Below, in pieces: positions 8,110 through 36,530 of a DNA stretch of 48,373 bases (the stretch's first letter is position 1; each line of letters begins with the position of its first letter). A model generated the notes under the pieces. The model was not told where the DNA came from and did no database searches. It saw nothing but the letters and a program-made list of their open reading frames with translations. Both the position numbers and the translations under genes were made by a program. The DNA lies in NCBI RefSeq assembly GCF_014637725.1, contig NZ_BMFC01000022.1, positions 1 through 48,373 of the forward strand, written 5' to 3'. This DNA comes from Marivita lacus. Its GTDB lineage: Bacteria > Pseudomonadota > Alphaproteobacteria > Rhodobacterales > Rhodobacteraceae.

Positions 8110-8121
8110 TGGTCCCGGGCG

Positions 8122-12941: not shown

Positions 12942-12970
12942 TTGACACGGAGGTGCATCAAGCCTATCCA
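12942..12970 (+). promoter_or_regulatory. Candidate sigma-70-type promoter of the ROK/malonate operon
   Basis: A perfect TTGACA (12942-12947) is followed after 17 bases by TATCCA (12965-12970), a weak -10. The predicted start of transcription would be near 12977, inside the palindrome at 12974-12986 and just upstream of the ATG at 12989. This is the only promoter-like pair I found between the hsdR remnant and the ROK gene. Confidence 0.4.
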
Positions 12971-12973
12971 GAA

Positions 12974-12986
12974 TTACACAGTGTAA
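12974..12986. promoter_or_regulatory. Palindromic operator candidate (ROK autoregulation)
   Basis: TTACAC-A-GTGTAA is a perfect 13-base palindrome ending 2 bases before the chosen ROK start codon. It overlaps the predicted transcription start, a classic repressor position. The likely binder is the ROK regulator itself, which is inference. Confidence 0.5.
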
Positions 12987-12988
12987 GA

Positions 12989-14206
12989 ATGAAAATTGAA
13001 GGAGTCGATGATTTGGGGCAGCCGCGCAACAGGCGAGAGACGCGCGCGTCGATCCTTAGCGTGATCTGGCGCCAGAACGGGGCCTATCGCACTGATATTT
13101 CTAAATTCATCGACATATCCGAGGCCAGCGTCTCGCGGATCGTCGCGGACCTGAAGGCCGAAGCCATCGTGCAGGAGGTGCATCGCAGCGCACCGTACCG
13201 GGGTGGGCCCAGTACAATCCTTACACTCAGCAATCAAAAACATGTGGCGGCGATCGAAGTGTCGAACAACCGCATGCATGTCGGCATCGCCAGCCTGCAG
13301 GGCAAACTGCTGTATTCGGAACGCGTACCCCTTAAGGACGGCGCCGACCAGATCCGCATTGATGAGGCGATCAAGACAGCCATCCAGATGCTGGCCGACG
13401 GGACGCAGCGCGGCAACTGGCTGATCGAGCAGATCGCCGTGACCATTCCGGGGTTCAATTTGGACCGCCCGCGGAACCCGATCATCGACCTGGACCCGAA
13501 CCTGCTGCGCACGCAGCTTGCCGCCCGCTTTCCGGGCATCCCCGTGCAGATCGAGAATTCCATCCTTGCGCGGGCCATCGCGCACCGCCTGCGTTCGGCC
13601 GAAGATGCGGCGCGCGACCGGTATCTGTATGTCTTTGCGGGGCATGGTGTCGCGGGGGCGATGATCGACGGATCGTCCGATGCGGGCGATGTGACGGCCT
13701 GCGAGCTTGGCCATATGGTGGTGGATCGCAAGGGTCCGCTGTGCCGCTGCGGCCATCACGGCTGCGCCGAGGCCTATGCCTCGACCGTCGCCATCGCGCC
13801 TTTGATGAAGGTCGAGGAGCAGACCCTGCTGGAGATGGGCGACAGCTGGGCGCAAGAGCTTGGCCTGCCAGCGCGGGTCAGTGGGGCCCTTCACGACCGA
13901 CTGACCCTTCTGGGCATCGCGATCGGCAACACGCTGAACGTGACCCGTGCGCGCCGGATCAGGGTAGGGGGCTGGCCCGCAGCCATGGGCGCCGCAGGCG
14001 AGGACGCCATCCGGAACGGGTTGGACATGAGCCTTCTGGGCGGTGCCAGCGCGATAGACCTGAAGTTTGTGCAATCAGAACTGGGGCGAGAGCCGGAGTC
14101 CGCGCTTGCTTTGGCAACATTCGACTTTTTGCGTCAAGGCGGCAAGTCAGTTCACCAGCAAGACCAAACCGATGCCTGGGCAGAAGAAGCCATCGGCACG
14201 GAATAG
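12989..14206 (+). CDS. ROK-family transcriptional regulator
   Basis: This 405-residue regulator has an N-terminal winged helix-turn-helix (NRRETRASILSVIWRQNGA..., recognition region SEASVSRIVADL, about residues 14-70) and a C-terminal ROK sugar-kinase-like domain. The ROK zinc motif is intact: ELGH plus CRCGHHGCAE. The usual ENDAN catalytic motif is replaced by ENSILARAI, so sugar kinase activity is not expected. ROK repressors usually respond to sugars or sugar phosphates. The ATG at 12989 is preferred to the open-frame start at 12827: it puts the HTH near the N-terminus, and a promoter and palindrome lie just upstream. The ABC importer gene begins 23 bases after the stop, so the regulator probably leads and controls the operon. 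Confidence 0.9.
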   Translation: MKIEGVDDLGQPRNRRETRASILSVIWRQNGAYRTDISKFIDISEASVSRIVADLKAEAIVQEVHRSAPYRGGPSTILTLSNQKHVAAIEVSNNRMHVGIASLQGKLLYSERVPLKDGADQIRIDEAIKTAIQMLADGTQRGNWLIEQIAVTIPGFNLDRPRNPIIDLDPNLLRTQLAARFPGIPVQIENSILARAIAHRLRSAEDAARDRYLYVFAGHGVAGAMIDGSSDAGDVTACELGHMVVDRKGPLCRCGHHGCAEAYASTVAIAPLMKVEEQTLLEMGDSWAQELGLPARVSGALHDRLTLLGIAIGNTLNVTRARRIRVGGWPAAMGAAGEDAIRNGLDMSLLGGASAIDLKFVQSELGREPESALALATFDFLRQGGKSVHQQDQTDAWAEEAIGTE

Positions 14207-14229
14207 ATGAAACACTAAGGGAGGATACG

Positions 14230-15798
14230 ATGAGGAAATCCGCATTCTTGACCACATGTCTGCTGTTGGCAGGCATAGGTCTGGGCGCAACGGGCGAATC
14301 TGCCGAAGAGGTGCTGCGCATCAAGCCTTCGGGCGACGTCAAGGTTCTGGACCCGATGCTTGGGTCGGATTCGATGGCGCGCAACTACGGCTACATGGTT
14401 TATGACACCCTGTTCGCCGTGGACGCCGATCTGAAGATTCAGCCGCAGATGGTCGATGCCTGGTCCAAGTCGGACGACGGGATGACCTATACCTTCACGC
14501 TGCGCGACGGGTTGAAGTTCAGCGATGGCGCGACTGTCACCTCGGCTGACGTCATTGCTTCTCTCAAGCGCTGGAGCGTGAATGACAGCCTTGGCCAGCA
14601 GCTGAACACCAATGGCGCCACCTATGCCGAAGTCGATGCAAAGACCTTCACCCTGACCCTGTCCAAGCCCTGGGGCCTGGTGATCGACGCCCTGGGCAAG
14701 CCTGGCGCCCCGGTACCGTTCATCATGCCCGCGCGGATCGCCGATGCGACCGCGCCGACCGATCCCGTCAAGGACTATACCGGATCGGGCCCGTTCATGT
14801 TCGTGGCCGAAGAATGGGTTCCCGGTGCGAAACTGGTGTTCACGAAGAACCCGCACTACACGCCGCGCGCCGAAGCGGCCAGCGGCTTTGCCGGTGGCAA
14901 GGTCGCCCATATGGACCGCGTCGAATGGCTGATCATACCTGACCAGCAGACCGCAATCGACGCACTGAAAAAGGGTGAGATCGACATCAACGAGGATCTG
15001 GCGGCCGACCTGATCCCGCTGGCCAAGCAGGATCCGAATGTCGTTGTGACCAAGCAGGACGAAATCGGCGTGGCCCAGCAGATCCGTCTGAACACGCTGC
15101 AGCCGCCGTTCAACAACCCGAAGGTCCGCCAGGCGGTGCTTCACGCGGTGGATGGCAATGACTTCCTTGCCGCCGTTCTGGATGACCCGAGCCTTGGCAA
15201 GGTGTGCCCGTCCTTCTTCATCTGCTCTTCGCCCTATTTCACGGATGCCGGTTTCCCTGCGCCGGACCTTGAAAAGGCCAAACAGATGCTGGCGGAAAGC
15301 GGCTATGACGGCACGCCGGTCGTGCTGCTGGATGCGACGGAAAACACCAACATCCATGCCTTTGTCACGGTTGCGGACCAGTTGCTGCAAGAGATTGGCA
15401 TGAACACCAGGGTCGAGGCCATGGATTGGGCGACGATTACCACGCGCCGCAAGAGCAAGGACCCGGTCGATGCGGGCGGCTGGTCGATCTTCATCTCGGG
15501 TCCAGGCGGGTTGGACTATCTTGAACCGGTCAGCCATCTGGGCCTGCGGTCCAACTGCGAAAACGCATGGTTCGGCTGGCCCTGTGACGACCAGATCGAG
15601 ACGATGCGCGCCGACTTTGCGGGCCTTTCGGATCTGGAAGAGCGCAAGGCCCTTGCCGCCAAGATCCAGGCACGGGCGCTTGAAACCGTGCCCTATGTGC
15701 CGATCGCGGTGCAGTACCAGATCCGCGCCCATGCCGCAAACCTGACCGGCATCCTGACGCCGCCGGCGCCCGTGTACTGGGGCATCGAACGCAAGTGA
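14230..15798 (+). CDS. ABC transporter substrate-binding protein, family 5 (Dpp/Opp type)
   Basis: This 522-residue periplasmic binding protein has a Sec signal peptide (MRKSAFLTTCLLLAGIGLG, cleavage near residue 25) and the SBP_bac_5 fold (ARNYGYMVYDTLF, GMTYTFTLRDGLKFSDG). Family members bind peptides, nickel chelates, opines, glutathione or oligosaccharides and plant glycosides, so the fold does not define the ligand. A GAGG ribosome-binding site precedes the ATG at 14230. A very stable hairpin follows the gene before the permeases, a common device for expressing the binding protein in excess. Its placement with malonate enzymes suggests a malonylated ligand (inference). Confidence 0.92.
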   Translation: MRKSAFLTTCLLLAGIGLGATGESAEEVLRIKPSGDVKVLDPMLGSDSMARNYGYMVYDTLFAVDADLKIQPQMVDAWSKSDDGMTYTFTLRDGLKFSDGATVTSADVIASLKRWSVNDSLGQQLNTNGATYAEVDAKTFTLTLSKPWGLVIDALGKPGAPVPFIMPARIADATAPTDPVKDYTGSGPFMFVAEEWVPGAKLVFTKNPHYTPRAEAASGFAGGKVAHMDRVEWLIIPDQQTAIDALKKGEIDINEDLAADLIPLAKQDPNVVVTKQDEIGVAQQIRLNTLQPPFNNPKVRQAVLHAVDGNDFLAAVLDDPSLGKVCPSFFICSSPYFTDAGFPAPDLEKAKQMLAESGYDGTPVVLLDATENTNIHAFVTVADQLLQEIGMNTRVEAMDWATITTRRKSKDPVDAGGWSIFISGPGGLDYLEPVSHLGLRSNCENAWFGWPCDDQIETMRADFAGLSDLEERKALAAKIQARALETVPYVPIAVQYQIRAHAANLTGILTPPAPVYWGIERK

Positions 15799-15803
15799 AT
15801 CTT

Positions 15804-15842
15804 GTCTCTGGCGGCGGGCACCAATTGCCCGCCGCCAGAGAC
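15804..15842 (+). promoter_or_regulatory. Strong intercistronic hairpin after the binding-protein gene
   Basis: A perfect 17-bp stem is formed by GTCTCTGGCGGCGGGCA (15804-15820) and TGCCCGCCGCCAGAGAC (15826-15842), with loop CCAAT. There is no downstream T-tract, and the permease gene starts 24 bases later with an AGGAGG site. I read it as an mRNA-stabilising or partial-termination element that raises binding-protein levels relative to the membrane subunits. Confidence 0.85.
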
Positions 15843-15866
15843 TGATCGAATGGCAGGAGGCCCGCA

Positions 15867-16808
15867 GTGCTCAACTTTGTTGTCAGACGACTGGTTTCGA
15901 CCATTCCGGTCATGGTGTTCGTAGCGCTGTTCGTGTTCAGCCTGATCTACTTTGCACCCGGCGACCCTGCGGCCCTGATCGCGGGAGATCAGGCCTCGGC
16001 TGCGGAAATCGAACGGATCCGATTGTCGCTTGGTCTGGATCGCCCCTTCTTTCTGCGGTTCTTCGGGTGGCTGGGTGACGTCCTGCAGGGCGACCTTGGC
16101 GTTTCGGTGTTTTCTCAGCTGCCGGTGACAACCCTGATCGGCCAGCGGCTTGAACCCACTCTCTCGCTCATGGTGATGACGGTGGTCCTGTCGGTCACGA
16201 TCGCCGTGCCGCTGGGCGTTGTTGCCGCGGCCAGGCAGGGCACCTGGATCGACCGGTTCGTGATGACCTTTGCGGTCATCGGATTTTCCGTGCCGGTCTT
16301 CGTGATCGGCTACATCCTGAGCTATGTCTTTGCGATCCGGCTGAACCTTCTGCCTGTGCAGGGGTATTCGCCGCTTGCAGAAGGTTTCTGGCCCTTCTTA
16401 AAAAGCCTTCTGTTGCCCTCCGTTGCGCTGAGCGGTGTCTATGTCGCGCTGATCGCCCGGATCACCCGCACCTCGATGATCGAGGTACTATCGCAGGATT
16501 ACATCCGCACTGCACGCGCCAAGGGGCTGGGCCAAGGTCCGATCCTGTTCGTGCATGCGCTGAAGAATGCCTCGGTTCCGATCATCACGGTCATCGGCAT
16601 CGGCATCTCCTTGCTGATCGGAGGGGCGGTGGTCACGGAAACCGTGTTTGCCATTCCGGGGATCGGGCGGCTTGTCGTCGATGCGATCCTGCGTCGCGAT
16701 TACCCCGTCATCCAGGGCGTCGTGCTGTTGTTCAGCCTTGGCTACGTGCTGATCAACCTGTGCATCGACCTGATCTACACCCTTCTGGATCCGAGAGTAC
16801 GCTACTGA
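15867..16808 (+). CDS. ABC permease, DppB type
   Basis: This 313-residue inner-membrane permease has six predicted helices. The N-terminal signature MLNFVVRRLVSTIPVMVFVALFV and the EAA-type loop (DYIRTARAKGLGQGPILFVHALKNA) are typical of DppB/OppB. It starts at a GTG codon 6 bases after AGGAGG. The stop overlaps the start of the next permease gene (TGATG). It forms the membrane channel together with the DppC-type subunit. Confidence 0.93.
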   Translation: MLNFVVRRLVSTIPVMVFVALFVFSLIYFAPGDPAALIAGDQASAAEIERIRLSLGLDRPFFLRFFGWLGDVLQGDLGVSVFSQLPVTTLIGQRLEPTLSLMVMTVVLSVTIAVPLGVVAAARQGTWIDRFVMTFAVIGFSVPVFVIGYILSYVFAIRLNLLPVQGYSPLAEGFWPFLKSLLLPSVALSGVYVALIARITRTSMIEVLSQDYIRTARAKGLGQGPILFVHALKNASVPIITVIGIGISLLIGGAVVTETVFAIPGIGRLVVDAILRRDYPVIQGVVLLFSLGYVLINLCIDLIYTLLDPRVRY

Positions 16809-17701
16809 TGGACACCCCCACCCAAGCGCTGCCGCCGCTTCCAGATCTGTTTCCGCCGCAACCCCGGCGCGGAAAGGTCCGGCGATTGATCGTCCAGCAT
16901 CCGTCCATCGTGATCGGCGGCAGCCTGCTGGTTCTGATCATACTGCTGGCCATCTTTGCGAACTGGCTTGGCACGGTTGACCCCTACAAGATCGCCCCTG
17001 CCAAGCGAAACCGGCTGCCGTCGATGGACTTCTGGTTCGGCACGGATACCCTGGGCCGCGACATCTATTCCCGGGTGCTTTACGGAGGACGGGTCTCGCT
17101 GTTCGTGGGCGTCTCGGTGGCGTTTCTGGCCACGGTGCTTGGGCTGGTCACGGGTCTGATTGCCGGGGCCTATCGACGGCTTGACGCCATCATCATGCGG
17201 CTGATGGACGGGTTGATGTCGATCCCGCCGATCCTTCTGGCCATCGCCTTGGTGGCCGCCATTGGCGGGTCGGTGCTGAACGTCATTCTGGCCATCACGA
17301 TGGCCGAATTCCCGCGCATGAGCCGCATTGTGCGAGGTGTTGTCCTGTCGGTGCGCGAACAGCCCTTCATCGACGGCGCCATCGCGGCCGGATCGACGAT
17401 GCCGAAGATCATCATCCGCCACATCCTGCCCAACATCATGGGCCCGATCATCGTGCAGGCGACCTATATCTGTTCGGCCGCGATGATCACCGAGGCAGCG
17501 CTCAGCTTCATCGGGGCGGGTACGCCGCCTTCGATCCCCAGTTGGGGCGGCATCATGAACGAAGGCCGGATGCTGTGGCAGATCAAGCCCTACATCATCC
17601 TGTTTCCGGCGGTCTTTCTGTCGGTGACGGTTCTGGCGGTCAATCTGCTGGGTGACGGCCTGCGCGATGCGCTGGACCCGCGCTCTGCAACCCGGCTATA
17701 G
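16808..17701 (+). CDS. ABC permease, DppC type
   Basis: This 297-residue permease is the partner of the DppB-type protein. It has the DppC N-terminal cytoplasmic segment and first helix (VIGGSLLVLIILLAIFANWLG), the conserved FGTDTLGRDIYSRVLYGGR block, and an EAA loop (PFIDGAIAAGSTMPKIIIRHILPN). The ATG at 16808 overlaps the preceding stop. The ATPase gene follows after 13 bases. Confidence 0.93.
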   Translation: MDTPTQALPPLPDLFPPQPRRGKVRRLIVQHPSIVIGGSLLVLIILLAIFANWLGTVDPYKIAPAKRNRLPSMDFWFGTDTLGRDIYSRVLYGGRVSLFVGVSVAFLATVLGLVTGLIAGAYRRLDAIIMRLMDGLMSIPPILLAIALVAAIGGSVLNVILAITMAEFPRMSRIVRGVVLSVREQPFIDGAIAAGSTMPKIIIRHILPNIMGPIIVQATYICSAAMITEAALSFIGAGTPPSIPSWGGIMNEGRMLWQIKPYIILFPAVFLSVTVLAVNLLGDGLRDALDPRSATRL

Positions 17702-17714
17702 GAAGGGCAGCCTG

Positions 17715-18704
17715 ATGGAACTCTTGAACGTTCAGCATCTGCGCACGCATTTCCGGTCGGCCGAGGGGGCGGTGCGGGCGGTCGAGGACGTGTCATTCCG
17801 CCTTGAGACTGGCAAGACGCTGGCCATTGTCGGAGAGTCCGGGTCCGGCAAGTCGGTGACGTCGCTGTCGATCATGGGGCTTCTGGACAAGAAGACGGCG
17901 CGCAACAGCGGCTCGATCACCTTTGGCGGCCGCAACCTGCTGACCCTGTCGGAACGCGAGATGCGCAAAATCCGCGGCAACGAGATCGGGATGGTATTTC
18001 AGGAACCGATGACTAGCTTGAACCCCGTCCTGAGCGTCGGGCGCCAGATCGGCGAGACATTGCGCCTGCATCAGGGCTTGTCCAGACAGGCCGCGCGGAC
18101 GCGGGCGATCGACCTGCTGCGGCTGGTGGACATTCCCGCGCCCGAACGCCGGATCGACGAATACCCGCACCAGTTGTCGGGCGGGATGCGCCAGAGGGTG
18201 ATGATCGCCATCGCGCTGGCCTGCGAGCCGAAGCTGCTGATCGCGGATGAACCGACAACCGCGCTGGATGTGACGGTGCAAGCGCAGGTGCTTGACCTGA
18301 TGCGCGATCTGCAGAAGCGTACCGGAACCGCCATCATACTGATCACCCATGACCTGGGCGTCGTGGCCGACATCGCCGACCGTGTGATCGTGATGTATGC
18401 CGGGCGCACTGTGGAAGAGGCCGCAACGGCCGATCTCTATGCCCGCCCGATGCACCCCTATACCAAGGGGCTGCTGGCCACGATCCCGCGGCTGGGCTCA
18501 TCCCTCTTGCCCGGCGAACCGGCGCGGCTGGAGGAAATTCCCGGGCAGGTTCCCAGTCTGCGCAAGCCGATTCACGGCTGCGCCTTTGCCGGGCGCTGCA
18601 AGTTTTCCGTCGATCTGTGCCGCAGCAAGGCCCCGGTGCTGGAGCGCAAGTCAGAAGGCCACAGCGTCGCCTGCCACCTTGCGGACAACGGAGTTTCGGC
18701 ATGA
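17715..18704 (+). CDS. ABC ATP-binding protein, DppD type
   Basis: This 329-residue ATPase has Walker A GESGSGKS at about 40-47, Q-loop [10 protein letters not shown], signature LSGGMRQRV, Walker [13 protein letters not shown] and the switch His in LITHDLG. The C-terminal oligopeptide-transporter domain with the cysteine cluster ([15 protein letters not shown]) is present; in this subfamily it may hold an iron-sulfur cluster. It overlaps the next ATPase gene by 4 bases. Confidence 0.94.
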
Positions 18705-19696
18705 CAACGTGCGCCCCGCTTCTTGAGCTCAGAAACCTGCAGAAGCACTATTTTCTGCGGCCCAATCTTCTGGGTAAGCCCACAGCGACGGTCCATGCCC
18801 TGGACGACGTGAACCTGACCCTGTCGGCGGGCGAGACGCTGTCCATCGTCGGGGAAAGTGGCTGCGGCAAATCCACCCTGGGCAAAACGGTTGTCCGCCT
18901 GCACCAGCCGACCGACGGCCAGATCCTGCTGGATGGACGTCGGGTCGACCAGATCGGCGGGGCCGAGCTCAAGGCCTTTCGCGCGCGGGTTCAGGTGGTG
19001 TTTCAGGACCCCTATTCCAGCCTTAATCCCCGCATCCGGGTGCGCGACACCCTGAGCGAGCCGCTGCACAACTTCGGGCTGGCCAAGGATGCCGCCGCTG
19101 TGACGCAAAGGGTCGAGGAACTGCTGGATATGGTGGGATTGCCGCGCGACGCGGCCGGCCGGTATCCGCATGAATTTTCCGGGGGCCAGCGGCAGCGCAT
19201 CGCCATTGCCCGGGCGCTTTCCCCGCGCCCCGATCTGATTGTCTGTGACGAGGCCGTGTCGGCGCTGGATGTCTCGGTCAAGGCGCAGATCGTGAACCTT
19301 CTGGGCGATATCCAGAAAAAGACCGGCCTGGCCATGCTGTTCATCAGCCATGATCTGGCCATCGTGGAACACCTGACGCATCGCGTTGCGGTGATGTATC
19401 TGGGCCGGGTGGTCGAGGTCGGCAACCGCCGCGAGATTTTCGGCAATGCCCTGCACCCCTATACGCGGGCGCTGATATCCGCCGTGCCGCAACCGGACCC
19501 GATGAACAAGACCAGGCGCAAGCTGCTGACGGGTGACGTCCCCAGCCCGATTGCGCCGCCACCGGGTTGCCGGTTCAACACGCGCTGCCCCTTTGCCACC
19601 GACCTTTGTCGCGCCGAGGTGCCCGTGCTGCGCGCTGTCGGCGGCACTCATCAGATCGCCTGCCATTATGACAACCTTGTCGAGGCGGCGGCATGA
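18701..19696 (+). CDS. ABC ATP-binding protein, DppF type
   Basis: This 331-residue second ATPase has Walker A GESGCGKST, Q-loop FQDPYSSLNP, signature FSGGQRQRIAIARAL, Walker B LIVCDEAVSALD and the H-loop FISHDL. The C-terminal GCRFNTRCPFATDLC cluster is typical of DppF/OppF. In Walker B, EAVSALD is the usual DppF variant. The start overlaps dppD-like and the stop overlaps the esterase gene (ATGA), so all genes from the ATPases to the decarboxylase are translationally coupled. Confidence 0.94.
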   Translation: MTTCAPLLELRNLQKHYFLRPNLLGKPTATVHALDDVNLTLSAGETLSIVGESGCGKSTLGKTVVRLHQPTDGQILLDGRRVDQIGGAELKAFRARVQVVFQDPYSSLNPRIRVRDTLSEPLHNFGLAKDAAAVTQRVEELLDMVGLPRDAAGRYPHEFSGGQRQRIAIARALSPRPDLIVCDEAVSALDVSVKAQIVNLLGDIQKKTGLAMLFISHDLAIVEHLTHRVAVMYLGRVVEVGNRREIFGNALHPYTRALISAVPQPDPMNKTRRKLLTGDVPSPIAPPPGCRFNTRCPFATDLCRAEVPVLRAVGGTHQIACHYDNLVEAAA

Positions 19697-21174
19697 ACCT
19701 GCAGCCGGCCGTCAAGCCAGAAGACACGGCCGAATGTTGCATAGAGGTGGCACAGGGCGCGTTGCGCGGCAGCGAACAGGGCGGATACCGCCGGTTTTTG
19801 GCCGTCCCCTATGCCGAGCCCCCTGTCGGGCGGCGTCGGTTTCTTCCAGCACTGCCGCCGCGTTCGTGGGATGGCTTGCGCGATGCGCAGACACAGGCGC
19901 CCGTCGCCCCGCAACGACCCGATCCTGGGTTCTTTCCCGGCGACCCCGATGCCATGCCCGCATCGGAAATGGACGAGGATTGTCTTTACATGAACATCTG
20001 GGCCCCGGCTGCGGGCAGCGCGCCCTGTCCGGTGCTGGTCTGGCTGCATGGCGGATCGCAACTGATCGGCGGCACCGCCCGGCCCGTCTATGACGGCGCG
20101 GCCTTTGCCCGGGCCGGTATCGTCTGCGTCACCGTCGGGCACCGGCTGGGGCTGCTGGGGTTCATGGAGCTGGAACATCATCTGGGGGCGGACTATCGCG
20201 AAAGCGGCAATGCAGCGCTGGGGGATATGATCCGGGCCCTTGAATGGGTGCGCGACAATATCGGCGTTTTTGGTGGTGATGCGCAGCGTGTCACCCTTGG
20301 GGGTGAATCGGCGGGCGGCAAGAATGTTGCGACGCTGCTAGCCGCCCCGCGCGCGCGCGGGCTGTTTCAGGCCGCGGTCATTGTGTCCGGTGGCGGCGAG
20401 ACGATCCTGACCTTCGACGAGGCCAAGGCGCTGGCCAATCGGGTCATCACCCTGACCGGCCACGGGGCACAGGCTCTGTGCCATCTGCCTTGGCCCGACA
20501 TGCTTGACGCGCAGCGGCGCCTTTTGTCCGGCGGGGGCCGCAAGCTGCCGACACGGCCCTTTGTTGGCGGCGCCATTCTGCCTCTGCCGCCGCTGGCCGC
20601 CATCGAAAGCGGAACGGTTCCCCCGGTTCCGTTGCTGCTGGGCACCTCGCGCGATGAGATGATTGCGTCTGTGCTTGGGGCGCAAGGCGACTGGGCATGG
20701 ATGCCCGAGATCCTGAGCCACGCCCTGCCGGATGACATGACCCGGATCGAGGGTGCGGCCAGACAGGCCTGGCCCAAACTGGACGCTGTGGCCCGCCGCT
20801 GCGCCCTGCTGACGGCCGAGGAATACTGGCTGCCGGCCCGACGCCTTGCCGATGCGCAGGCACGGGCGGGCGCGCCCGTGTGGATGTACCGCAATGATAT
20901 CTCTTGTACGACTGGCCCACTTGCCGGATATGCCTCGCATGTCTCGGATCTGAATGCTCTGTGGGGCCATCTGCCGGCCCTTCCCTCTGCGCGGCTGCAC
21001 CGCATGCTTTGCGATTTCGTCCGCAATCACGCCGCCCACTGGGATCGTTATGACCCCACGACGCGCCGGACCGCGGTTCTTTGCAACGATCTGAGTGTTC
21101 AGACCAACCCGGGCGCAGATGTCGCCGCCCTGTTCGGGGCATACGGGTTCGGTCGCGGGGGAATGGGAAGATGA
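19693..21174 (+). CDS. Type B carboxylesterase
   Basis: This 493-residue alpha/beta-hydrolase belongs to the carboxylesterase type B family. It shows the oxyanion HGG at 119-121, the family motif EDCLYMN at 95-101, and the nucleophile elbow GESAGG with Ser206. A candidate catalytic His lies in ASHVSDLNALWG. There is no signal peptide, so it acts in the cytoplasm on a compound brought in by the ABC importer. It is locked between importer and malonate genes by ATGA overlaps on both sides, which argues that its substrate is the transported compound and its product is malonate or a precursor (inference). Type B esterases accept many carboxylic esters, so specificity cannot be read from sequence. 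Confidence 0.9.
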   Translation: MNLQPAVKPEDTAECCIEVAQGALRGSEQGGYRRFLAVPYAEPPVGRRRFLPALPPRSWDGLRDAQTQAPVAPQRPDPGFFPGDPDAMPASEMDEDCLYMNIWAPAAGSAPCPVLVWLHGGSQLIGGTARPVYDGAAFARAGIVCVTVGHRLGLLGFMELEHHLGADYRESGNAALGDMIRALEWVRDNIGVFGGDAQRVTLGGESAGGKNVATLLAAPRARGLFQAAVIVSGGGETILTFDEAKALANRVITLTGHGAQALCHLPWPDMLDAQRRLLSGGGRKLPTRPFVGGAILPLPPLAAIESGTVPPVPLLLGTSRDEMIASVLGAQGDWAWMPEILSHALPDDMTRIEGAARQAWPKLDAVARRCALLTAEEYWLPARRLADAQARAGAPVWMYRNDISCTTGPLAGYASHVSDLNALWGHLPALPSARLHRMLCDFVRNHAAHWDRYDPTTRRTAVLCNDLSVQTNPGADVAALFGAYGFGRGGMGR

Positions 21175-22457
21175 AGAATTCCGCAAGACTCCTGAGTGAT
21201 CTGCTGGAACGCGTCGCAGAGGTTGGACGCACCCTGCGATCGTACCCCCCCGGCCAGACCGGCATTCTGGATCAATGCCATGTCTTACTGTCCAGCAAGG
21301 GCGAAGCGACCAGCCTTGCCACGGCCAGGGAAATTCTCGACCGTTTCCCAAATCTGGCTCCGGGCGAAAAACACGACTTCTTTTGCAGGTTGCTGTCGGA
21401 ATTCGGACCCGACATGACCGCCACCGCCGCAAGCATCGCGGCGTGGCAGGCCACCCCGGACAGCGCCACCCTGCGCCGCCTGCATTTTGCCAGCGAACCG
21501 CGTAGTCAGGAACTTGTCCGCCGCCTGAACCGGGCCCCGGGTGGGACGGGCGGCGTGGTTGCCATGCGCAAGGACCTTTTGGCCTGCCTGAAGGCCGAAC
21601 CGGGCCTGAAGGCATTGGACGATGATTTCCGCCACCTGCTGTCGTCGTGGTTCAATCGCGGCTTTCTGGAATTGCGGCAGATCACCTGGTCCACACCGGC
21701 AGAAATCCTTGAGCGGATCATCACCTATGAGGCTGTGCATGAAATCGGCGACTGGTCCGATCTGCGCCGCCGGGTCGCCGAGCCGGATCGTCGTCTTTAT
21801 GCCTTTTTCCACCCCGCCCTGCATGCCGATCCTCTGATCTTTGTCGAGGTGGCGTTGACGCGCGAGGTCCCCGAGAAGATCGGAACAATTCTGGCGGCGC
21901 AGCGAGAGATCACCCATCCCAATCAGGCCAGAACGGCTGTTTTCTATTCGATCTCGAATTGTCAGGAAGGTTTGCGGGGAATCTCCTTCGGCAATTTCCT
22001 GATAAAACAGGTGGTCGAGGAACTGCGCAAGGAACTGCCGAACCTGACCACATTCGTCACGCTGTCCCCCGTTCCGGGATTGCGCAGATGGGCCGAGGCC
22101 GAAACCCTGCCCTCCGCCCTGCGTGCGACCGTGGCCCAGATTGCCCGATCCGGCGCGGTCCCGGATCAGGCAATGGCCGAACTGGCGGCCTTCTATCTGG
22201 CCGGAACGGACGGGTCGGGCAGCGGTGCGCGCGATCCTGTTGCGCGTTTCCATCTGGGCAACGGGGCGCGGCTTGAACGCATCCATGCCAACGCCGATCC
22301 CAGCCCAAAGGGAATGAGAGAGTCCTGGGGAGTCATGGTCAACTACCTCTACGACCTTAAGGATATCGAGGCGAACCACGAAGCCTACAATGGCGGTGGC
22401 GCCATTGTCTGCGGGCCAGTGGTCGAGAAGACCCTGAACAAGATACAGAAAGTCTAG
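21171..22457 (+). CDS. matA: Malonyl-CoA decarboxylase (MatA type)
   Basis: This 428-residue enzyme converts malonyl-CoA to acetyl-CoA and CO2. The N-terminal helical domain spans about 1-120; the C-terminal GNAT-like catalytic domain carries the two expected catalytic residues, Ser299 in TLSPVPG and His361 in FHLGNGARL, equivalent to S329 and H423 of the human enzyme. YSISNCQEGLRGISFGNFLIK is the conserved CoA-site block. No targeting signal is seen, so it is cytoplasmic. It starts within the esterase stop (ATGA) and is followed by the synthetase gene after 6 bases. Its length is slightly shorter than rhizobial MatA. Confidence 0.94.
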   Translation: MKNSARLLSDLLERVAEVGRTLRSYPPGQTGILDQCHVLLSSKGEATSLATAREILDRFPNLAPGEKHDFFCRLLSEFGPDMTATAASIAAWQATPDSATLRRLHFASEPRSQELVRRLNRAPGGTGGVVAMRKDLLACLKAEPGLKALDDDFRHLLSSWFNRGFLELRQITWSTPAEILERIITYEAVHEIGDWSDLRRRVAEPDRRLYAFFHPALHADPLIFVEVALTREVPEKIGTILAAQREITHPNQARTAVFYSISNCQEGLRGISFGNFLIKQVVEELRKELPNLTTFVTLSPVPGLRRWAEAETLPSALRATVAQIARSGAVPDQAMAELAAFYLAGTDGSGSGARDPVARFHLGNGARLERIHANADPSPKGMRESWGVMVNYLYDLKDIEANHEAYNGGGAIVCGPVVEKTLNKIQKV

Positions 22458-22463
22458 GGATCC

Positions 22464-23984
22464 ATGATGGTGAACTACCTGATTGACGCATTGCGCGCCG
22501 GGTCTTCCGGCGCGGACGAGCGCGTCTTTGCGACCCTGCCGGACCGGACAACCATGAGTTTTGACCAGCTTTTCGGCGGTGCCGAACAGATGGCGGCCGC
22601 GCTGTTCGCAGCAGGCGTCACCCCCGGCGACCGCGTCGCGGTGCAGGTTGAAAAGTCGCCGTCGGCCGTGCAGCTTTACCTTGGCACCGTGATGGCGGGC
22701 GCAATCTTTCTGCCCCTCAATACGGCCTATACCCCGGCAGAGCTTGACTATTTCCTGACCGACGCCGCACCGCGGGTCTTTGTCTGCGACCCCGCGCGGA
22801 TAGATGCGCTTGCGCCGATTGCAACAAAGGCAGGCACCGCCCGTATTCTAACGCTGGGTTCGGATGGCAGCGGAACGCTGGCTGAGGCTGCACAAACCCG
22901 CGCTGCGAGATTTGCGGCCGTAGCGCGGTCGGCCTCGGATATCGCCGCGATCCTGTATACCTCGGGAACGACCGGGCGCTCAAAGGGGGCGATGCTGACC
23001 CATGACAATCTTGCCTCGAACGCCAGGGTATTGGCCTCGTTATGGAAATTCACACCGCAAGACGTGCTGATCCACGCCCTGCCCATCTTTCACACCCACG
23101 GCCTTTTTGTGGCGACGAACGTTGCCCTGGTGGCTGGGGCATCCCTGCGCTTTCATGCCAGTTTTGACGCGGCTGCAATTCTGGCCGATATGGCCGATGC
23201 CACGGTGCTGATGGGGGTGCCCACCTTCTACACCCGGCTGCTGGCGCACCCGGACCTGAACCGCCAAACCACGGCGGGTATGCGGGTTTTCGTGTCCGGT
23301 TCGGCCCCGCTGCTTGCGCAGACCCATATGGAATGGTCCGAACGCACCGGCCACGCCATTCTGGAACGCTACGGCATGACCGAAACGAACATGAACAGTT
23401 CCAACCCCTATGATGGGGAACGTCGCCCCGGAACCGTCGGCTTTGCGCTGCCGGGAACCGAGATCATCATCACCGATCCGGCAACCGGCGCGCCCTTGCC
23501 GCAGGGCGATGTTGGCGCGATTGAGGTACGCGGCCCGAATGTCTTCAAGGGGTATTGGCAGATGCCCGAAAAGACCGCCGCCGAGTTGCGCGAGAACGGC
23601 TTTTTCATCACTGGAGATCTGGGTCGTTTCAGCAGCGATGGCTATCTGGAGATTGTGGGGCGTTCCAAGGACCTGATCATCACAGGCGGCTATAACGTCT
23701 ATCCCAAGGAATTGGAGGATCTGATCGATGCTTTGCCCGGCGTTGCGGAATCCGCTGTCTTTGGCCTTCCGCATCCCGATTTCGGCGAAAGTGTCGCTGT
23801 CGCCGTGGTTCTGCGGCCGGATTCAACCATGACCGCCACAGAGATCCAGCAGGCGATTTCCCCAAATCTCGCACGGTTCAAACAGCCCAAACAGGTGTTC
23901 ATTCTTGCCGAATTGCCCCGAAATGCGATGGGTAAGGTCAGCAAGGCTGTGCTCAGGCAAAACCACATTCCAGTGCCAGAATGA
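22464..23984 (+). CDS. matB: Malonyl-CoA synthetase (MatB type)
   Basis: This 506-residue acyl-adenylate-forming enzyme activates malonate to malonyl-CoA with ATP. It has the AMP-binding P-loop YTSGTTGRSKG at 165-175, an ERYGMTETNMN A5-type motif, ITGDLGRFSSDGYLEIVGRSKD hinge region, and the catalytic C-terminal Lys491 in NAMGKVSK. Overall sequence matches malonyl-CoA synthetase (MMVNYLIDAL, PLNTAYTPAELDYFLTDA) rather than generic acyl-CoA ligases. It feeds the decarboxylase encoded just upstream. It is the last gene of the operon; the mini-ISL3 begins 20 bases after the stop, so any native terminator may have been lost. Confidence 0.93.
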   Translation: MMVNYLIDALRAGSSGADERVFATLPDRTTMSFDQLFGGAEQMAAALFAAGVTPGDRVAVQVEKSPSAVQLYLGTVMAGAIFLPLNTAYTPAELDYFLTDAAPRVFVCDPARIDALAPIATKAGTARILTLGSDGSGTLAEAAQTRAARFAAVARSASDIAAILYTSGTTGRSKGAMLTHDNLASNARVLASLWKFTPQDVLIHALPIFHTHGLFVATNVALVAGASLRFHASFDAAAILADMADATVLMGVPTFYTRLLAHPDLNRQTTAGMRVFVSGSAPLLAQTHMEWSERTGHAILERYGMTETNMNSSNPYDGERRPGTVGFALPGTEIIITDPATGAPLPQGDVGAIEVRGPNVFKGYWQMPEKTAAELRENGFFITGDLGRFSSDGYLEIVGRSKDLIITGGYNVYPKELEDLIDALPGVAESAVFGLPHPDFGESVAVAVVLRPDSTMTATEIQQAISPNLARFKQPKQVFILAELPRNAMGKVSKAVLRQNHIPVPE

Positions 23985-24004: not shown

Positions 24005-24620
24005 GGGCTCTGCCTCAATCTGTGTGGCGGAACGGTAGCATTCTCGCCCGCAACAATTCTGGACCGGCTCGGCCGTACATGGCGCGCTTGAGGGTCTTCA
24101 GGCGATTGATCTGACCTTCTGCTTGGCCGTTGCTCCAGGGCATCTCGATGGCGTTTTTGACGGCATCGTAGTCTCGGTTCAATGTTCGGGCGAAGCGCAC
24201 GAGTGGTGCCAGGTCGGTTTCAATCGCGTCACAGGTCCATGCTGGGAGCGGGTCTCCTTCGCGGCCGCGCAGGATACCGCTGAACCGCATGGCGAGACAG
24301 CGCATCGTTGCGAAGGCCAGAGAGCCGGTCTTGAGAGCGTCGACTTTACGCGCCTGATCCGGGGTAAACTTGCCACGCGGTTTGATGCACAGCGCTGCCG
24401 CGATGACTGCGGAAATCGCGTGCCCAGTTTCCGGGTCCCGGACTGGCTTAAGGATTGCGTGCTCAACCTTGGGATCGCTCGCTTGCTGTTCGGTTCTGCG
24501 CCAACCCGCCAGCAGCCGCTGCAAATGCGACAGATTCCCCTCGTAGCCACGCTCTTGGATCATTGCAGACCCACCTTGGCATATCGATGCCGTCGGGGGG
24601 CGGTTACATCATCAGAGCCC
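24005..24620 (-). mobile_element. Internally deleted ISL3-family element (616 bp)
   Basis: Perfect 8-base terminal inverted repeats, GGGCTCTG (24005-24012) and CAGAGCCC (24613-24620), enclose only the last part of an ISL3-family transposase on the minus strand. The 5' two-thirds of the usual 1.3-1.5 kb element are missing while both ends remain, so it is structurally a non-autonomous derivative. The flanks (CTTAAAT on the left, ATCAAAGG on the right) do not form a target duplication, and the right flank is IS1380 sequence. Confidence 0.65.
24015..24563 (-). pseudogene. ISL3-family transposase, C-terminal part
   Basis: The frame of 182 codons ends with the ISL3 hallmark IEMPWSNGQAEGQINRLKTL followed by KRAMYGRAG, the final catalytic Glu block of the DDE transposase. 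It begins inside the protein at an IQERGYEGNLSHLQRLL segment that normally follows the N-terminal zinc and HTH domains. The first catalytic residues are therefore missing and the protein cannot transpose the element alone. Confidence 0.82.
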
Positions 24621-25136
24621 ATCAAAGGTATCATCTATATCGACCACGATCCGGCCTGGGGGCGCAATGGACTGACAGTAGAACCGGACGATCTCGCGGC
24701 CCATGCGGATCAGCGCGCGCGCATCGGGCAGGTTTTCCATGCGCGAAATCGTCGGTTGCGAACATGACGCCGCCCCGGTTTCCGGGCCGCGCTCCAGCGC
24801 AATCCTGAAGCTGGGATCGTGCCGCAGGGCGTTTGCGTCATTGCCGTCTTCATACCCTGCTGCGATCATCATGATCCGGAAACGGATAATGTCGCACGGG
24901 CCATGCTGAACTTTCACCGGATCACGCCGGCAATTAGCGAGCCGCTGCGCCAGAACCGCCTTACGCTCGATCTCGCGCAGCAGGGTCAGCCCGGCGTCGG
25001 AGCTCATGTCGGCGCCGTCAAAGCCAAACAGGATCGGTTTGCCATTGAGGGGTGACAGGCATGAAGTGAAGCACGTAGATTGGGCCATGGCTGAGGTCGT
25101 CCTCCTGAAAGCTTCATGTTTGGGGTCGACAACCAA
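24621..25136 (-). pseudogene. IS1380-family transposase, N-terminal fragment
   Basis: From 25136 leftwards the frame encodes the N-terminal 170 residues of an IS1380 transposase (FDGADMSSDAGLTLLREIE, YEDGNDANALRHDP, QPTISRMENLP, VVDIDDTFD). The first catalytic Asp region (DIDDTFD) is the last thing preserved: the frame enters the ISL3 terminal repeat at 24620 and stops after two codons. A probable outer end (GTGAATTATCTGGGT) lies at 25182-25196. The rest of the element is gone, so an ISL3-associated deletion removed it. Confidence 0.82.
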
Positions 25137-25206: not shown

Positions 25207-26133
25207 ATGCAAACATACCTACGTTCCCTTCGCCCTGTTCAACTGCACCTGATCGCTGCTGTCTCGCGACTGGGCAAGCTGAGCCTTGCAGCCGACGCCT
25301 GCTCGATGACCACGCCGGCCGCATCGCGCATGCTGGCGGACATCGAAACCCAGCTTGGCACGGTGTTGTTCGAGCGGAAGCCGAAAGGCATGCTCGCCAC
25401 GCCCGCTGGCGACGTGCTTGCAAATCACGCCAAGAAGCTGATCAGCGACATTGACCAAATGACCAAGGATTTCGCGGCCCATCTCGATGGCACGGGAGGT
25501 AGCGTTCGTGTCGGTGCAGTGACCGGAGGGGCACTGGCCGTCTTGATTCCGGCTATATTGGAACTGCAACGACAGGCTCCACTGATAGACGTTTCTTTGG
25601 ACGTCGCATCCTCAGCGCAGCTTATGCGGGGGCTTGAAAGCGGCGAGTATGATTTCACCCTCAGTCGCGTGGGCCCACAAGACTTTTCGCATCATTTTGA
25701 CATTCATCCTGCGGGGAGCGAATCCGTCCGCTTGATGGTGCGCTGCGGTCACCCTGTCGACGGTGCTGGACCAGTGACCCTCCGTGACCTTAGAAACTAC
25801 ATTTGGACCATGCAGGATCGCGGGGCTCCGATCCGTCATGCAATCGAGATCGCCTTCCACGAGGAAGGCCTCGACCTCCCTGCCAGTCTGATCAAGACGC
25901 CGTCTGTTGTGGCGATCATGGCGCTGATGCGTGATTCCGACGTCATCGCGGTTGTGACCGAAGAAGTGGCCGATCTTCTTCTCTTGCCGCCATACAATGC
26001 GGCTCTTGTCCTACTGGAACTGCCCAGACCCATTTTGATTGAACCGTATCACATTCTGCGTCCGCGCGACCGTCTGCTGTCTGCGGCCGCACAGCGCCTT
26101 CTTGACAATGTCCGGGATCAGGTTGGCAGCTGA
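25207..26133 (+). CDS. LysR-family regulator, GbpR type
   Basis: This 308-residue LysR regulator has an N-terminal HTH (LHLIAAVSRLGKLSLAADACSMTTPAASRMLADIE, about 12-48) and a C-terminal substrate-binding domain. The N-terminal wording resembles GbpR, the regulator of sugar-binding protein and galactose/arabinose uptake genes in Agrobacterium. It is encoded upstream of, and on the same strand as, the arabinose gene block, separated by 107 bases that hold operator-like repeats. A role in arabinose-dependent control is inferred. Its start is only 11 bases from the IS1380 end, so its own promoter may lie in IS sequence. Confidence 0.88.
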   Translation: MQTYLRSLRPVQLHLIAAVSRLGKLSLAADACSMTTPAASRMLADIETQLGTVLFERKPKGMLATPAGDVLANHAKKLISDIDQMTKDFAAHLDGTGGSVRVGAVTGGALAVLIPAILELQRQAPLIDVSLDVASSAQLMRGLESGEYDFTLSRVGPQDFSHHFDIHPAGSESVRLMVRCGHPVDGAGPVTLRDLRNYIWTMQDRGAPIRHAIEIAFHEEGLDLPASLIKTPSVVAIMALMRDSDVIAVVTEEVADLLLLPPYNAALVLLELPRPILIEPYHILRPRDRLLSAAAQRLLDNVRDQVGS

Positions 26134-26147
26134 AGTGTTATCAATTC

Positions 26148-26189
26148 TGTCAACGCGATAGTGCGAAATGTAAATTGTTTGTCAACAAA
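26148..26189. promoter_or_regulatory. Operator-like repeats upstream of the arabinose genes
   Basis: TGTCAAC occurs twice, at 26148-26154 and 26180-26186, 32 bases apart (about three helical turns). The second copy lies in a perfect palindrome, TTTGT-CA-ACAAA (26178-26189). The position between the LysR gene and the arabinofuranosidase gene suggests regulator binding; LysR proteins typically contact two sites on one DNA face. Confidence 0.45.
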
Positions 26190-26240
26190 ATATAACCTTA
26201 CGGTGATCCCAACGAGAGAAGTTTGCCATTGGGAGGGGAC

Positions 26241-27758
26241 ATGAAGGCTCGTGCCACGATTCACCGGGATTTTGCGCTCGCGCAGATAGACGACCGGCTC
26301 TACTCGGCTTTCATCGAACATATGGGGCGTGCGATCTACAGTGGGATCTACGAACCCGGACACCCGACGGCAAACCCGCAGGGCTTCCGGCAAGATGTTC
26401 TGGAACTCGTTCGAAACCTGAATATTCCGGTGATCCGCTACCCTGGTGGCAATTTTGTATCGGCCTATAAGTGGGAAGACGGCATTGGTCCCAAGGAGGA
26501 CCGGCCGGTGCGGCTTGACCTGGCGTGGCGGTCCAAGGAAACCAACCAGGTCGGGATCAACGAATTCGCCCAGTGGGCCAAGGATGCCGACATTGAAATG
26601 ATGCTGGCCGTCAATCTCGGCACGCGAGGCATTGAAGAGGCGCGCAATTTCGTCGAATACTGCAACCACACGTCAGGAACCTATTGGAGTGACCTGCGCC
26701 GCAGTCACGGTGTTGATGAACCATATGGCGTGAAAATGTGGTGTCTTGGCAATGAAATGGACGGTCCTTGGCAGATCGGCCATATGGAGGCCAAGGAATA
26801 CGGACGGCTTGCGGATGAAACCTCGAAGGCGGTCAAGGCTTTCGGCGGCGGGATCGAGACCGTTGTCTGCGGGTCGTCCAACGACGGGATGCCGACCTAT
26901 CCCGACTGGGAACGCCAAGTTCTGGAAGAGTGTTACGAGAATGTCGATTACATCTCGCTGCACAAGTATTTTGGGAACAGCAGCCACGACTCGCTGAACT
27001 ACTTCGCCAAGATCGATGAAACTGGCCGCTACATCCAGGCCATCGGTGGTGTCATCGACTTCGTGAAGGCCAAGAAGCGCGCCAAGAATGATGTGTTCAT
27101 TTGCTTCGACGAGTGGAATGTCTGGTATCACAAACGCGAGCAGGACGCCAAGAACTGGCGCTCCTGGGATTGGCCGGAAGCGCCAGAGCTTCTGGAAGAG
27201 GACTACAACCTTGAAGATGCACTTCTTGTCGGGGGCCTGCTGAACGAATTCATTCGCCGGTCTGACCGGGTCAAGATCGCCTGCATCGCACAGTTGGTGA
27301 ACGTCATCGCTCCGATCCGTGCCGAAAAGGGCGGTGCTGCCTGGGCCACGTCGATCTACTATCCGTACCAGTTCGCCAGTCTTTACGGGCGTGGTACCGC
27401 GCTGAATGTCGCGGTCAACGGCCCGCGATATGACGCGGACGCTGCGCATGACGTGAACTACCTGGACGTGGCCGCGGTCCTGTCGCCTGATGGCACGTCG
27501 ATCACGATCTTTGCCATCAATCGCAGCCTGGATGAAACGATGGAACTGGACATTGCGCTGCAAGGGTTCGAAGGGCTTAAGCTGGTCGAACACAAGGTTA
27601 TGGGCGGCACCAGTGCCGAGGCACGCGTTGCCAATACCAGCGCTGCGCCCGACAGGATCAAACCACGCAAGGGCGAAAAGCTGGCCGTGGGAGATGACGG
27701 CATAAAGGGCGAACTGCCCGCTTTCTCCTACAATATGATCCGGCTTTCGGTCAGGTAA
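26241..27758 (+). CDS. Alpha-L-arabinofuranosidase, GH51
   Basis: This 505-residue glycoside hydrolase removes terminal alpha-L-arabinofuranose from arabino-oligosaccharides. The GH51 acid/base is Glu172 in CLGNEMDG and the nucleophile is Glu291 in ICFDEWNVWY; the substrate-binding RYPGGNFVS block is at 66-74. No signal peptide is present, so it hydrolyses imported short oligosaccharides in the cytoplasm. The ATG at 26241 is chosen because GGGAGGGG precedes it; a TTG codon at 26223 is in frame but lacks a site. It heads the arabinose operon. Confidence 0.94.
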   Translation: MKARATIHRDFALAQIDDRLYSAFIEHMGRAIYSGIYEPGHPTANPQGFRQDVLELVRNLNIPVIRYPGGNFVSAYKWEDGIGPKEDRPVRLDLAWRSKETNQVGINEFAQWAKDADIEMMLAVNLGTRGIEEARNFVEYCNHTSGTYWSDLRRSHGVDEPYGVKMWCLGNEMDGPWQIGHMEAKEYGRLADETSKAVKAFGGGIETVVCGSSNDGMPTYPDWERQVLEECYENVDYISLHKYFGNSSHDSLNYFAKIDETGRYIQAIGGVIDFVKAKKRAKNDVFICFDEWNVWYHKREQDAKNWRSWDWPEAPELLEEDYNLEDALLVGGLLNEFIRRSDRVKIACIAQLVNVIAPIRAEKGGAAWATSIYYPYQFASLYGRGTALNVAVNGPRYDADAAHDVNYLDVAAVLSPDGTSITIFAINRSLDETMELDIALQGFEGLKLVEHKVMGGTSAEARVANTSAAPDRIKPRKGEKLAVGDDGIKGELPAFSYNMIRLSVR

Positions 27759-27789
27759 GCTCAGAGGGGGTGACAAGGGAGAAGAGGTT

Positions 27790-28875
27790 ATGAAAGCCAC
27801 CGGCGTTCATTTGAAGGCGGTAAAGAAGAGTTTCGGCGCCGTGGACGTCATTCGCGGCGTCGACATGGACGTCGAACGGGGGCACTTCGCCGTATTCGTA
27901 GGCCCTTCGGGCTGTGGAAAATCCACACTTCTGCGTATGATCGCGGGCTTGGAAGAGACGAGCGACGGTGAGATCTTCATCGGGGATCGCGACGTGACAC
28001 ACGAAGATCCGGCGGATCGTGGTGTTGCCATGGTATTCCAATCCTATGCGCTCTATCCCCATTTGTCGGTCTACGAGAACATGGCCTTTAGCCTGCGGCT
28101 GGCAAAACGTCCCAAGGCCGAGATCGACGACAAAGTCCGCGAGGCTGCTGGCATCCTGCAATTGGCAGATCATCTGGAAAAGAAGCCAGCGCAATTGTCG
28201 GGAGGGCAGCGCCAACGTGTTGCTATTGGTCGCGCCATCGTTCGTGCGCCGGATGTCTTTCTATTTGATGAACCGTTGTCGAACCTTGATGCGGAACTGC
28301 GGGTTCAGATGCGCCTGGAACTCGCGCGACTGCATCAGAAGCTTGGCGCCACCATGATCTATGTCACCCACGATCAAGTCGAAGCCATGACCCTGGCTGA
28401 CACGATCTTTGTGCTTCAAGGCGGGCATGTCCAGCAATCGGGGGCGCCACTGGATCTTTATGACGATCCATCGAACCGCTTTGTCGCCGGGTTCATCGGA
28501 TCGCCGTCAATGAACTTCTTCAGTGCATCAGTCGACGACCACACCGGAGACGGTATCGACGTTCGATTGAGTGGGCAGCCTGACATGACCTTGAACCTGC
28601 CTGTTTCAAAGCCCCCCACCAAAGGGGCATCTATCGTGCTTGGCATGCGGCCCGAGCATCTGGTCGTAACCAAGGGAGAGGGCTTGCGCGTCACCGTCGA
28701 TGTTGCCGAGGAACTGGGAGGTGTCTCGTATCAGCACGGCACGTTGGAAAGCGGCGATCCCGTGATTTTTCAGCAGGCCGGCGTGCGGCACGGCATGCAT
28801 GGCACAGTACAGACCGTCATGCCCGAACCGGGACGGGTCTTCGTCTTCGACATCGATGGCGAACGTATCCGGTGA
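27790..28875 (+). CDS. Sugar ABC ATP-binding protein (UgpC/MsmK type)
   Basis: This 361-residue ATPase energises a carbohydrate importer. It has Walker [11 protein letters not shown]-loop FQSYALYPH, signature LSGGQRQRVAIGRA, Walker B VFLFDEPLSNLD, the H-loop VTHDQ and a C-terminal regulatory OB/TOBE region from about residue 240 (VLGMRPEHL). It is preceded by the arabinofuranosidase gene and followed by a cognate binding protein and two permeases, forming a complete CUT1-type importer. Confidence 0.93.
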   Translation: MKATGVHLKAVKKSFGAVDVIRGVDMDVERGHFAVFVGPSGCGKSTLLRMIAGLEETSDGEIFIGDRDVTHEDPADRGVAMVFQSYALYPHLSVYENMAFSLRLAKRPKAEIDDKVREAAGILQLADHLEKKPAQLSGGQRQRVAIGRAIVRAPDVFLFDEPLSNLDAELRVQMRLELARLHQKLGATMIYVTHDQVEAMTLADTIFVLQGGHVQQSGAPLDLYDDPSNRFVAGFIGSPSMNFFSASVDDHTGDGIDVRLSGQPDMTLNLPVSKPPTKGASIVLGMRPEHLVVTKGEGLRVTVDVAEELGGVSYQHGTLESGDPVIFQQAGVRHGMHGTVQTVMPEPGRVFVFDIDGERIR

Positions 28876-28903
28876 CTGACTGACAACAAGGAGGAGAACT
28901 GAA

Positions 28904-30181: not shown

Positions 30182-30191
30182 TGCTTTGAAT

Positions 30192-30216
30192 TCGGGGGCG
30201 TCATGTGCGCCCCCGA
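30192..30216 (+). promoter_or_regulatory. Intercistronic hairpin after sugar-binding protein gene 1
   Basis: TCGGGGGCG (30192-30200) pairs perfectly with CGCCCCCGA (30208-30216) around the loop TCATGTG. No T-run follows. The arrangement repeats that seen after the binding protein at 15798, between a highly expressed binding protein and its permeases. Confidence 0.8.
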
Positions 30217-30242
30217 TCAAAATCTTCAAGAGGGGGGGTGCA

Positions 30243-31948: not shown

Positions 31949-31952
31949 AGCA

Positions 31953-36518: not shown

Positions 36519-36530
36519 GGGAGAATTTTG

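Follow-up and report, generated by a model that had tools for sequence, protein, structure and literature searches.

What is a peptide-type importer doing in one run of genes with a carboxylesterase and two enzymes of malonate catabolism? The window analysed here, a stretch of 48,373 nucleotides, is one whole contig of the 4.77-Mb, 65-contig genome of Marivita lacus, and between about 13.0 and 24.0 kb it carries nine co-directional, densely packed genes on the + strand. The first-pass annotation had named them, in order, as a ROK regulator, a substrate-binding protein (SBP), two permeases, two ATPases, an esterase, malonyl-CoA decarboxylase (MCD or MatA) and malonyl-CoA synthetase (MatB), and all nine were confirmed in that order and on that strand. 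We consider it fairly probable that the operon takes up a malonyl ester and hydrolyses it inside the cell, feeding MatAB. Comparison across genomes indicates that such an import-cleave-burn operon is real, conserved and repeatedly assembled. Its ester chemistry, substrate, direction of regulation, sugar identity and cell compartment are what we infer.

In the proposed route, the SBP and the Dpp-type ABC transporter would bring in the intact malonyl ester, and the type B esterase would split it in the cytoplasm into malonate and an alcohol. MatB would then convert malonate to malonyl-CoA, which MCD would decarboxylate to acetyl-CoA. The ROK protein, probably a repressor, would govern the operon from a single palindrome 5' of its own gene and would respond to the substrate or to the alcohol moiety, which may be a sugar.

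The junctions had been described as mostly ATGA overlaps, which is overstated: only three of the eight have one (ATPase 1/ATPase 2, ATPase 2/esterase and esterase/MCD). The two permease genes meet at TGATG, and the remaining four junctions are gaps of 23, 68, 13 and 6 nt. A perfect inverted repeat with 17-nt arms and a 5-nt loop was read between the SBP and permease 1 genes (15804..15842, + strand). No T-run follows it, so this repeat may stabilise the mRNA as a hairpin and is less likely to be a terminator. Searches of the window for Rfam families and tRNAs returned no match.

According to Pfam, the importer is a complete Dpp/Opp-type set, with an SBP_bac_5 protein, two BPD permeases and two ATPases carrying the oligo_HPY region. 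The periplasmic SBP (14230..15798; Pfam 1.6e-70; Dpp/Nik/Gsi class) is 64-80% identical to the ten orthologs examined and at most 56% identical to the other rows compared. Permease 1 (DppB/GsiC type, 15867..16808) was assigned from profile matches and is 79-83% identical to its orthologs. Permease 2 (DppC/GsiD type, 16808..17701), ATPase 1 (DppD/OppD type, 17715..18704) and ATPase 2 (DppF/OppF type, 18701..19696) were assigned from profile matches and ortholog comparison. As to peptide, nickel or glutathione specificity, none of the five components reached a curated NCBIfam cut-off among the matches listed, which comprise all rows for the SBP and permeases and the best 25 of 190 and best 25 of 189 for the ATPases; on this ground a nickel or peptide operon was considered and set aside. 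The importer shares its class with the Dpp/Nik/Opp systems that include the opine binders AgaA and AccA, whose solved structures are among the SBP matches, although their ligands differ from those proposed here. For 8vdx, the closest solved relative of the SBP, no ligand was found in the structure matches or the literature.

The esterase (19693..21174; Pfam COesterase 4e-75) is 48-51% identical to its orthologs in other loci of this kind. Its predicted triad, Ser206/Glu322/His416, comes from alignment to para-nitrobenzyl esterase, with the residues that we take to be catalytic in that enzyme as the basis. No signal peptide was seen by eye, and for this reason the cleavage is probably cytoplasmic. 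Several residues, including R130, K210, R288, R320 and R384, distinguish four of these orthologous rows from 25 others and are invariant also in a second alignment; no firm conclusion is based on these. With a limit of E 1e-60, the esterase was confined to the window's own genome, being found in 1 of 17 genomes of the genus, 1 of 295 in the family draw and 1 of 385 in the class draw, so the locus is rare and was probably acquired.

The last two genes are assigned clearly. MCD (21171..22457) has both Pfam MCD domains and matches solved MCDs, and MatB (22464..23984) scores 785 bits against a cut-off of 558 for the NCBIfam model PRK07514 (“malonyl-CoA synthase”) and 643 bits against the solved malonyl-CoA synthetase 4fuq. 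No dedicated malonate carrier (MatC, SLC13 or TRAP) was found among the nine genes with NCBIfam and Pfam. As background, the Rhizobiaceae draw has MCD in 60 of its 151 genomes and the draw from the window's own family in 113 of 295, so an MCD somewhere in a genome is not strong evidence alone.

For the ROK regulator (13013..14206; Pfam ROK 1.1e-19), a start at the ATG at 12989 is less likely than one at the TTG at 13013, which lies behind a GGAG, because a palindrome that lies upstream of the gene in relatives covers the ATG and because the ortholog alignment agrees. The protein aligns with the solved repressor Mlc from residue 14 onwards, through the N-terminal DNA-binding region; Pfam listed no HTH model in it. 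The palindrome, a candidate operator of 21 bp (12970..12990, + strand), reads AGAATTACACAGTGTAAGAAT (ANNNTTAC-N5-GTAARAAT). It stands directly 5' of the ROK gene in all nine related loci that were read, and placing the other two by coordinates gives 11 of 11. The exact pattern occurs once in the Marivita lacus genome. Across eleven genomes or records, the exact search returned it at each such locus and at one extra site in Neorhizobium (L242 3700-4430), where it precedes a ROK gene cut to 216 aa; a backwards control pattern gave one match in the same set. With up to two mismatches, the window has a single match, and at least one match also appeared in 20 of 100 shuffles. Since the palindrome precedes the ROK gene of every such locus and elsewhere only a truncated ROK copy, the protein is probably a dedicated local regulator.

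All eight ROK orthologs have Ser183 where Mlc and 1z05 have an Asp, presumably the catalytic Asp of ROK kinases, which Mlc retains despite being a repressor. Asn182, Glu231, His234 and Glu253, at positions that we take to be sugar contacts in ROK kinases, are kept in all eight rows. This fits a sugar-like inducer, and does not prove it.

At least 11 loci, including the window, carry the first part of the arrangement. ROK, SBP and esterase genes occur together in all 11, and in ten the permeases and ATPases are also present, with the seven genes in the same order. These comparisons mark out ROK–SBP–two permeases–two ATPases–esterase as a cassette that is rare but conserved. The other carriers are Pseudorhodobacter sp. 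MZDSW-24AT, Rhizobium sp. CB3171, CB3060, NXC24 and BT04, R. sullae WSM1592, R. leguminosarum Gr 12/7, Neorhizobium alkalisoli, the genome G704 and Bosea lupini. The Bosea locus (L040 7080-11443) is the exception, with ROK, SBP and esterase only and no permeases or related ATPases alongside; upstream of it are TRAP genes and a gene for a hydantoinase.

A plasmid search with the SBP at E 1e-100 returned 99 records. Six, all from Rhizobium, have 76-80% identity and also encode the esterase at 48-50%; a legume is given as the source of all six, which is common for Rhizobium plasmids generally. The other 93 are below 60% identity, the best among the matches listed at 48.0%. A scan of genome contigs with the esterase alignment kept at least 80 loci, namely 3 cassette orthologs and 77 distant esterases. 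Among these 77, some of them short, none had an MCD or SBP match above 120 bits, and two had a MatB-like match. The genome searches were strict, with limits of E 1e-60 or 1e-150, and in each genome only the leading few candidates were scored, so absences in them are not absolute; Pseudorhodobacter lay outside those draws. In the Rhizobiaceae draw, 4 of 394 genomes passed E 1e-150 in total. Two genomes of that draw, G757 and G778, have an SBP of 55-56% identity with ABC genes and no esterase match, and the more distant Terrarubrum (SBP 44%) is annotated with ROK-SBP-permease-permease-alpha/beta hydrolase.

The sister SBP locus of G778 adjoins a mandelate-racemase-family enzyme, dehydrogenases, a CUT1-type importer and a gluconolactonase-like gene. 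These sugar-catabolism surroundings are a weak hint of sugar-linked ligands. Together with the ROK family of the regulator and its retained residues, they make a circumstantial case that the non-malonyl moiety may be a sugar.

The esterase and ABC genes were expected to be conserved next to matAB, and this holds for part of the loci. MCD-MatB lies directly 3' of the esterase in five of the 11 (the window, Pseudorhodobacter and three Rhizobium plasmids), and the full nine-gene order of the window recurs in the other four of these. The three Rhizobium loci are near copies and are counted as one lineage, giving three lineages. matAB is not adjacent in another five (R. sullae, R. leguminosarum, BT04, Neorhizobium and Bosea), and the G704 contig stops about 280 bp past the esterase. 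MCD-MatB is found elsewhere in four of the six loci without adjacent matAB: beside MatC in Neorhizobium and in BT04 (there on the same plasmid), beside a divergent Dpp-type operon in Bosea, and beside a TRAP permease in G704. For R. sullae and R. leguminosarum, no MCD was found on the cassette plasmid, which was the replicon searched. The esterase/MCD overlap of the window has a counterpart in Pseudorhodobacter, where the longest reading frames also overlap by 4 nt, with the true MCD start maybe further down. Chance adjacency of the nine genes was rejected, as the arrangement recurs in three lineages.

The five adjacent matAB pairs do not share one origin. We built quick trees, with SH-aLRT support only, of 67 rows for MCD (at least 350 aligned residues) and 58 rows for MatB (at least 330 residues and 50% identity), after dropping seven rows that were second locus copies or partial and leaving out three copies of the window. 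In the MCD tree, the window groups with four rows of its family (starred support of 100), Pseudorhodobacter with a Gemmobacter SLC13-type locus (100, starred), and the three Rhizobium loci with ten rows of Rhizobiaceae (96, starred). A single clade of the five cassette matAB was rejected for MCD (AU p 9.7e-7) and for MatB (p 1e-57). A pairing of the window with Pseudorhodobacter was rejected for MCD (p 1.6e-4) and not rejected in the MatB tree (p 0.114). The closest company of the window's matAB in the trees is mat genes from its own family. In the transporter and esterase trees, the window goes with Rhizobiaceae rather than Pseudorhodobacter (93/95 and 83/90, both below the star threshold).

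Since both trees reject a common origin of the five pairs, matAB would have joined, or been replaced, behind the esterase repeatedly: either there were three separate recruitments, or a newer matAB took over the site of an older one. Either course suggests that selection keeps matAB behind the cassette esterase. That genes of different origin came to this position repeatedly argues that the esterase product feeds MatB. The proposal of malonyl-ester import and cleavage therefore gains from the importer and esterase forming one conserved unit and from matAB of different origin following the esterase in three lineages, and is weakened by the five cassettes in which matAB is not adjacent.

Those five cassettes also favour a different reading, which we consider unlikely: that the cassette takes up and splits a different ester, for example an acetylated or aromatic one, and that matAB came to lie beside it through mobile elements or in some other way. 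Type B esterases have broad specificity, and transposase remnants flank the window locus. Against it, the matAB of different origin stand directly behind the esterase in the same order and strand in all three lineages, and the sole MCD found in the Marivita lacus genome, as in that of Pseudorhodobacter, is the copy at the cassette.

As for the mobile elements, an IS91-type transposase and an integrase lie upstream of the locus (6910-9009) and two transposase fragments lie downstream (24015-25136), which suggests that it sits within a mobile region. Further downstream (25207-38051) are genes for a LysR regulator, an arabinofuranosidase, a CUT1-type ABC importer, an ILVD/EDD dehydratase, an oxidoreductase, an epimerase, a DHDPS-family protein and an aldehyde dehydrogenase. 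This adjoining set looks like an oxidative arabinose pathway.

A set of 60 MCD neighbourhoods from 59 genomes was compared within 7 kb with a small reference panel at E 1e-12. The sample consists mainly of the best MCD scores and some loci are at contig ends, so the following rates are not unbiased. TRAP permeases are the commonest transporter class (37 of 60), followed by Dpp-type importers (7, of which 3 also have TRAP) and MatC/SLC13 (4); an amidase is present in 3, no panel transporter in 15, and a window-type esterase in none. The statement that known matAB loci do not occur with a peptide-family importer was too strong, given these seven Dpp-type cases.

Two of the seven have a hydrolase inside the operon. 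One (L174 4842-14406) reads Dpp importer-MCD-amidase-MatB, an amide-cleaving parallel of the esterase locus, and the other (L220 6556-15443) reads Dpp importer-M20 hydrolase-MCD-MatB, with the M20 gene in the slot of the esterase. Another locus (L210) has LysR and M20 genes on the opposite strand, between MatB and the Dpp importer. Loci with a hydrolase support import followed by hydrolysis. In L216 and L223, the Dpp-type importer stands directly with MCD-MatB and no hydrolase was seen, so such importers may carry malonate itself.

These last two loci support the view that the window's importer takes up free malonate or a metal-malonate complex, with the esterase as an accessory, and SBP_bac_5 proteins do include chelate binders such as NikA. 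We regard this as quite unlikely, since the esterase is present in every cassette locus, even in Bosea where membrane components do not adjoin it, and most sampled MCD loci use TRAP or MatC. Very unlikely is a related reading with the same architecture and a different substrate class, in which the enzyme cuts an amide bond, or the acyl part is methylmalonyl or a different small diacid: MatB accepts methylmalonate and comparable operons have an amidase or M20 hydrolase, but the ester preference of type B carboxylesterases and the malonyl-CoA indicated by the downstream MCD speak against it. Malonamic acids, which are formed from maize benzoxazinoids (PMC12483121), also count in its favour.

Two further loci were observed beside these. 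In L227 (1053-10315), MCD-MatB is flanked by an AllG (oxamate carbamoyltransferase) gene and an amidase gene; ABC genes are close by, and the locus perhaps serves another nitrogenous malonyl compound. On a Tistrella plasmid (L134 3681-13980), a Dpp-type operon (48% SBP) is near an annotated arylmalonate decarboxylase, an amidase and a gamma-glutamyltransferase.

How does the malonyl-ester operon compare with known malonate systems? The Rhizobium matABC locus (GntR-MCD-MatB-MatC) has MCD and MatB in the order and with the chemistry of the window, but with a dedicated free-malonate carrier and a GntR regulator, and with no ABC importer, esterase or ROK protein; loci of the MatC type were seen here in Neorhizobium and BT04. 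GntR-TRAP-MCD-MatB loci, presumably the matPQM type, also share MCD-MatB, whereas their importer is a TRAP system, thought to carry free malonate, and they have no hydrolase. In Bradyrhizobium, malonamate metabolism uses a malonamidase, a hydrolase that frees malonate for MatB as proposed for the window, but it is an amidase acting on an amide, whereas the window has an esterase, an ABC importer and a ROK regulator. Among the open-licence papers listed, none describes the window's gene combination, and none points to a bacterial catabolic route for malonyl esters, judged by title and abstract start. Relative to the known loci, the operon is a new variant of malonate catabolism with an ABC importer and an esterase.

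Plant glycosides are commonly malonylated. A wider reading, which we offer tentatively and hold to be doubtful, is that legume-associated and other alphaproteobacteria feed on malonylated plant conjugates through a dedicated, horizontally mobile pathway. It would belong to a larger class of operons with a Dpp importer, an interchangeable hydrolase and MatAB, assembled repeatedly for different malonyl esters and amides. An example substrate could be 6-O-malonyl-glucose, which would remain once a plant beta-glucosidase has split a signalling isoflavone off its malonylglucoside. In soybean roots, apoplastic beta-glucosidases release isoflavones from conjugates, as noted in a review (PMC10796613), and the MatABC genes of R. 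leguminosarum are mentioned as induced in the alfalfa rhizosphere (PMC3333776). As the architecture appears to have been assembled repeatedly, a small number of purified proteins would suffice to test the substrate prediction. In rhizobia, the operon could link plant conjugates to the carbon supply of the rhizosphere.
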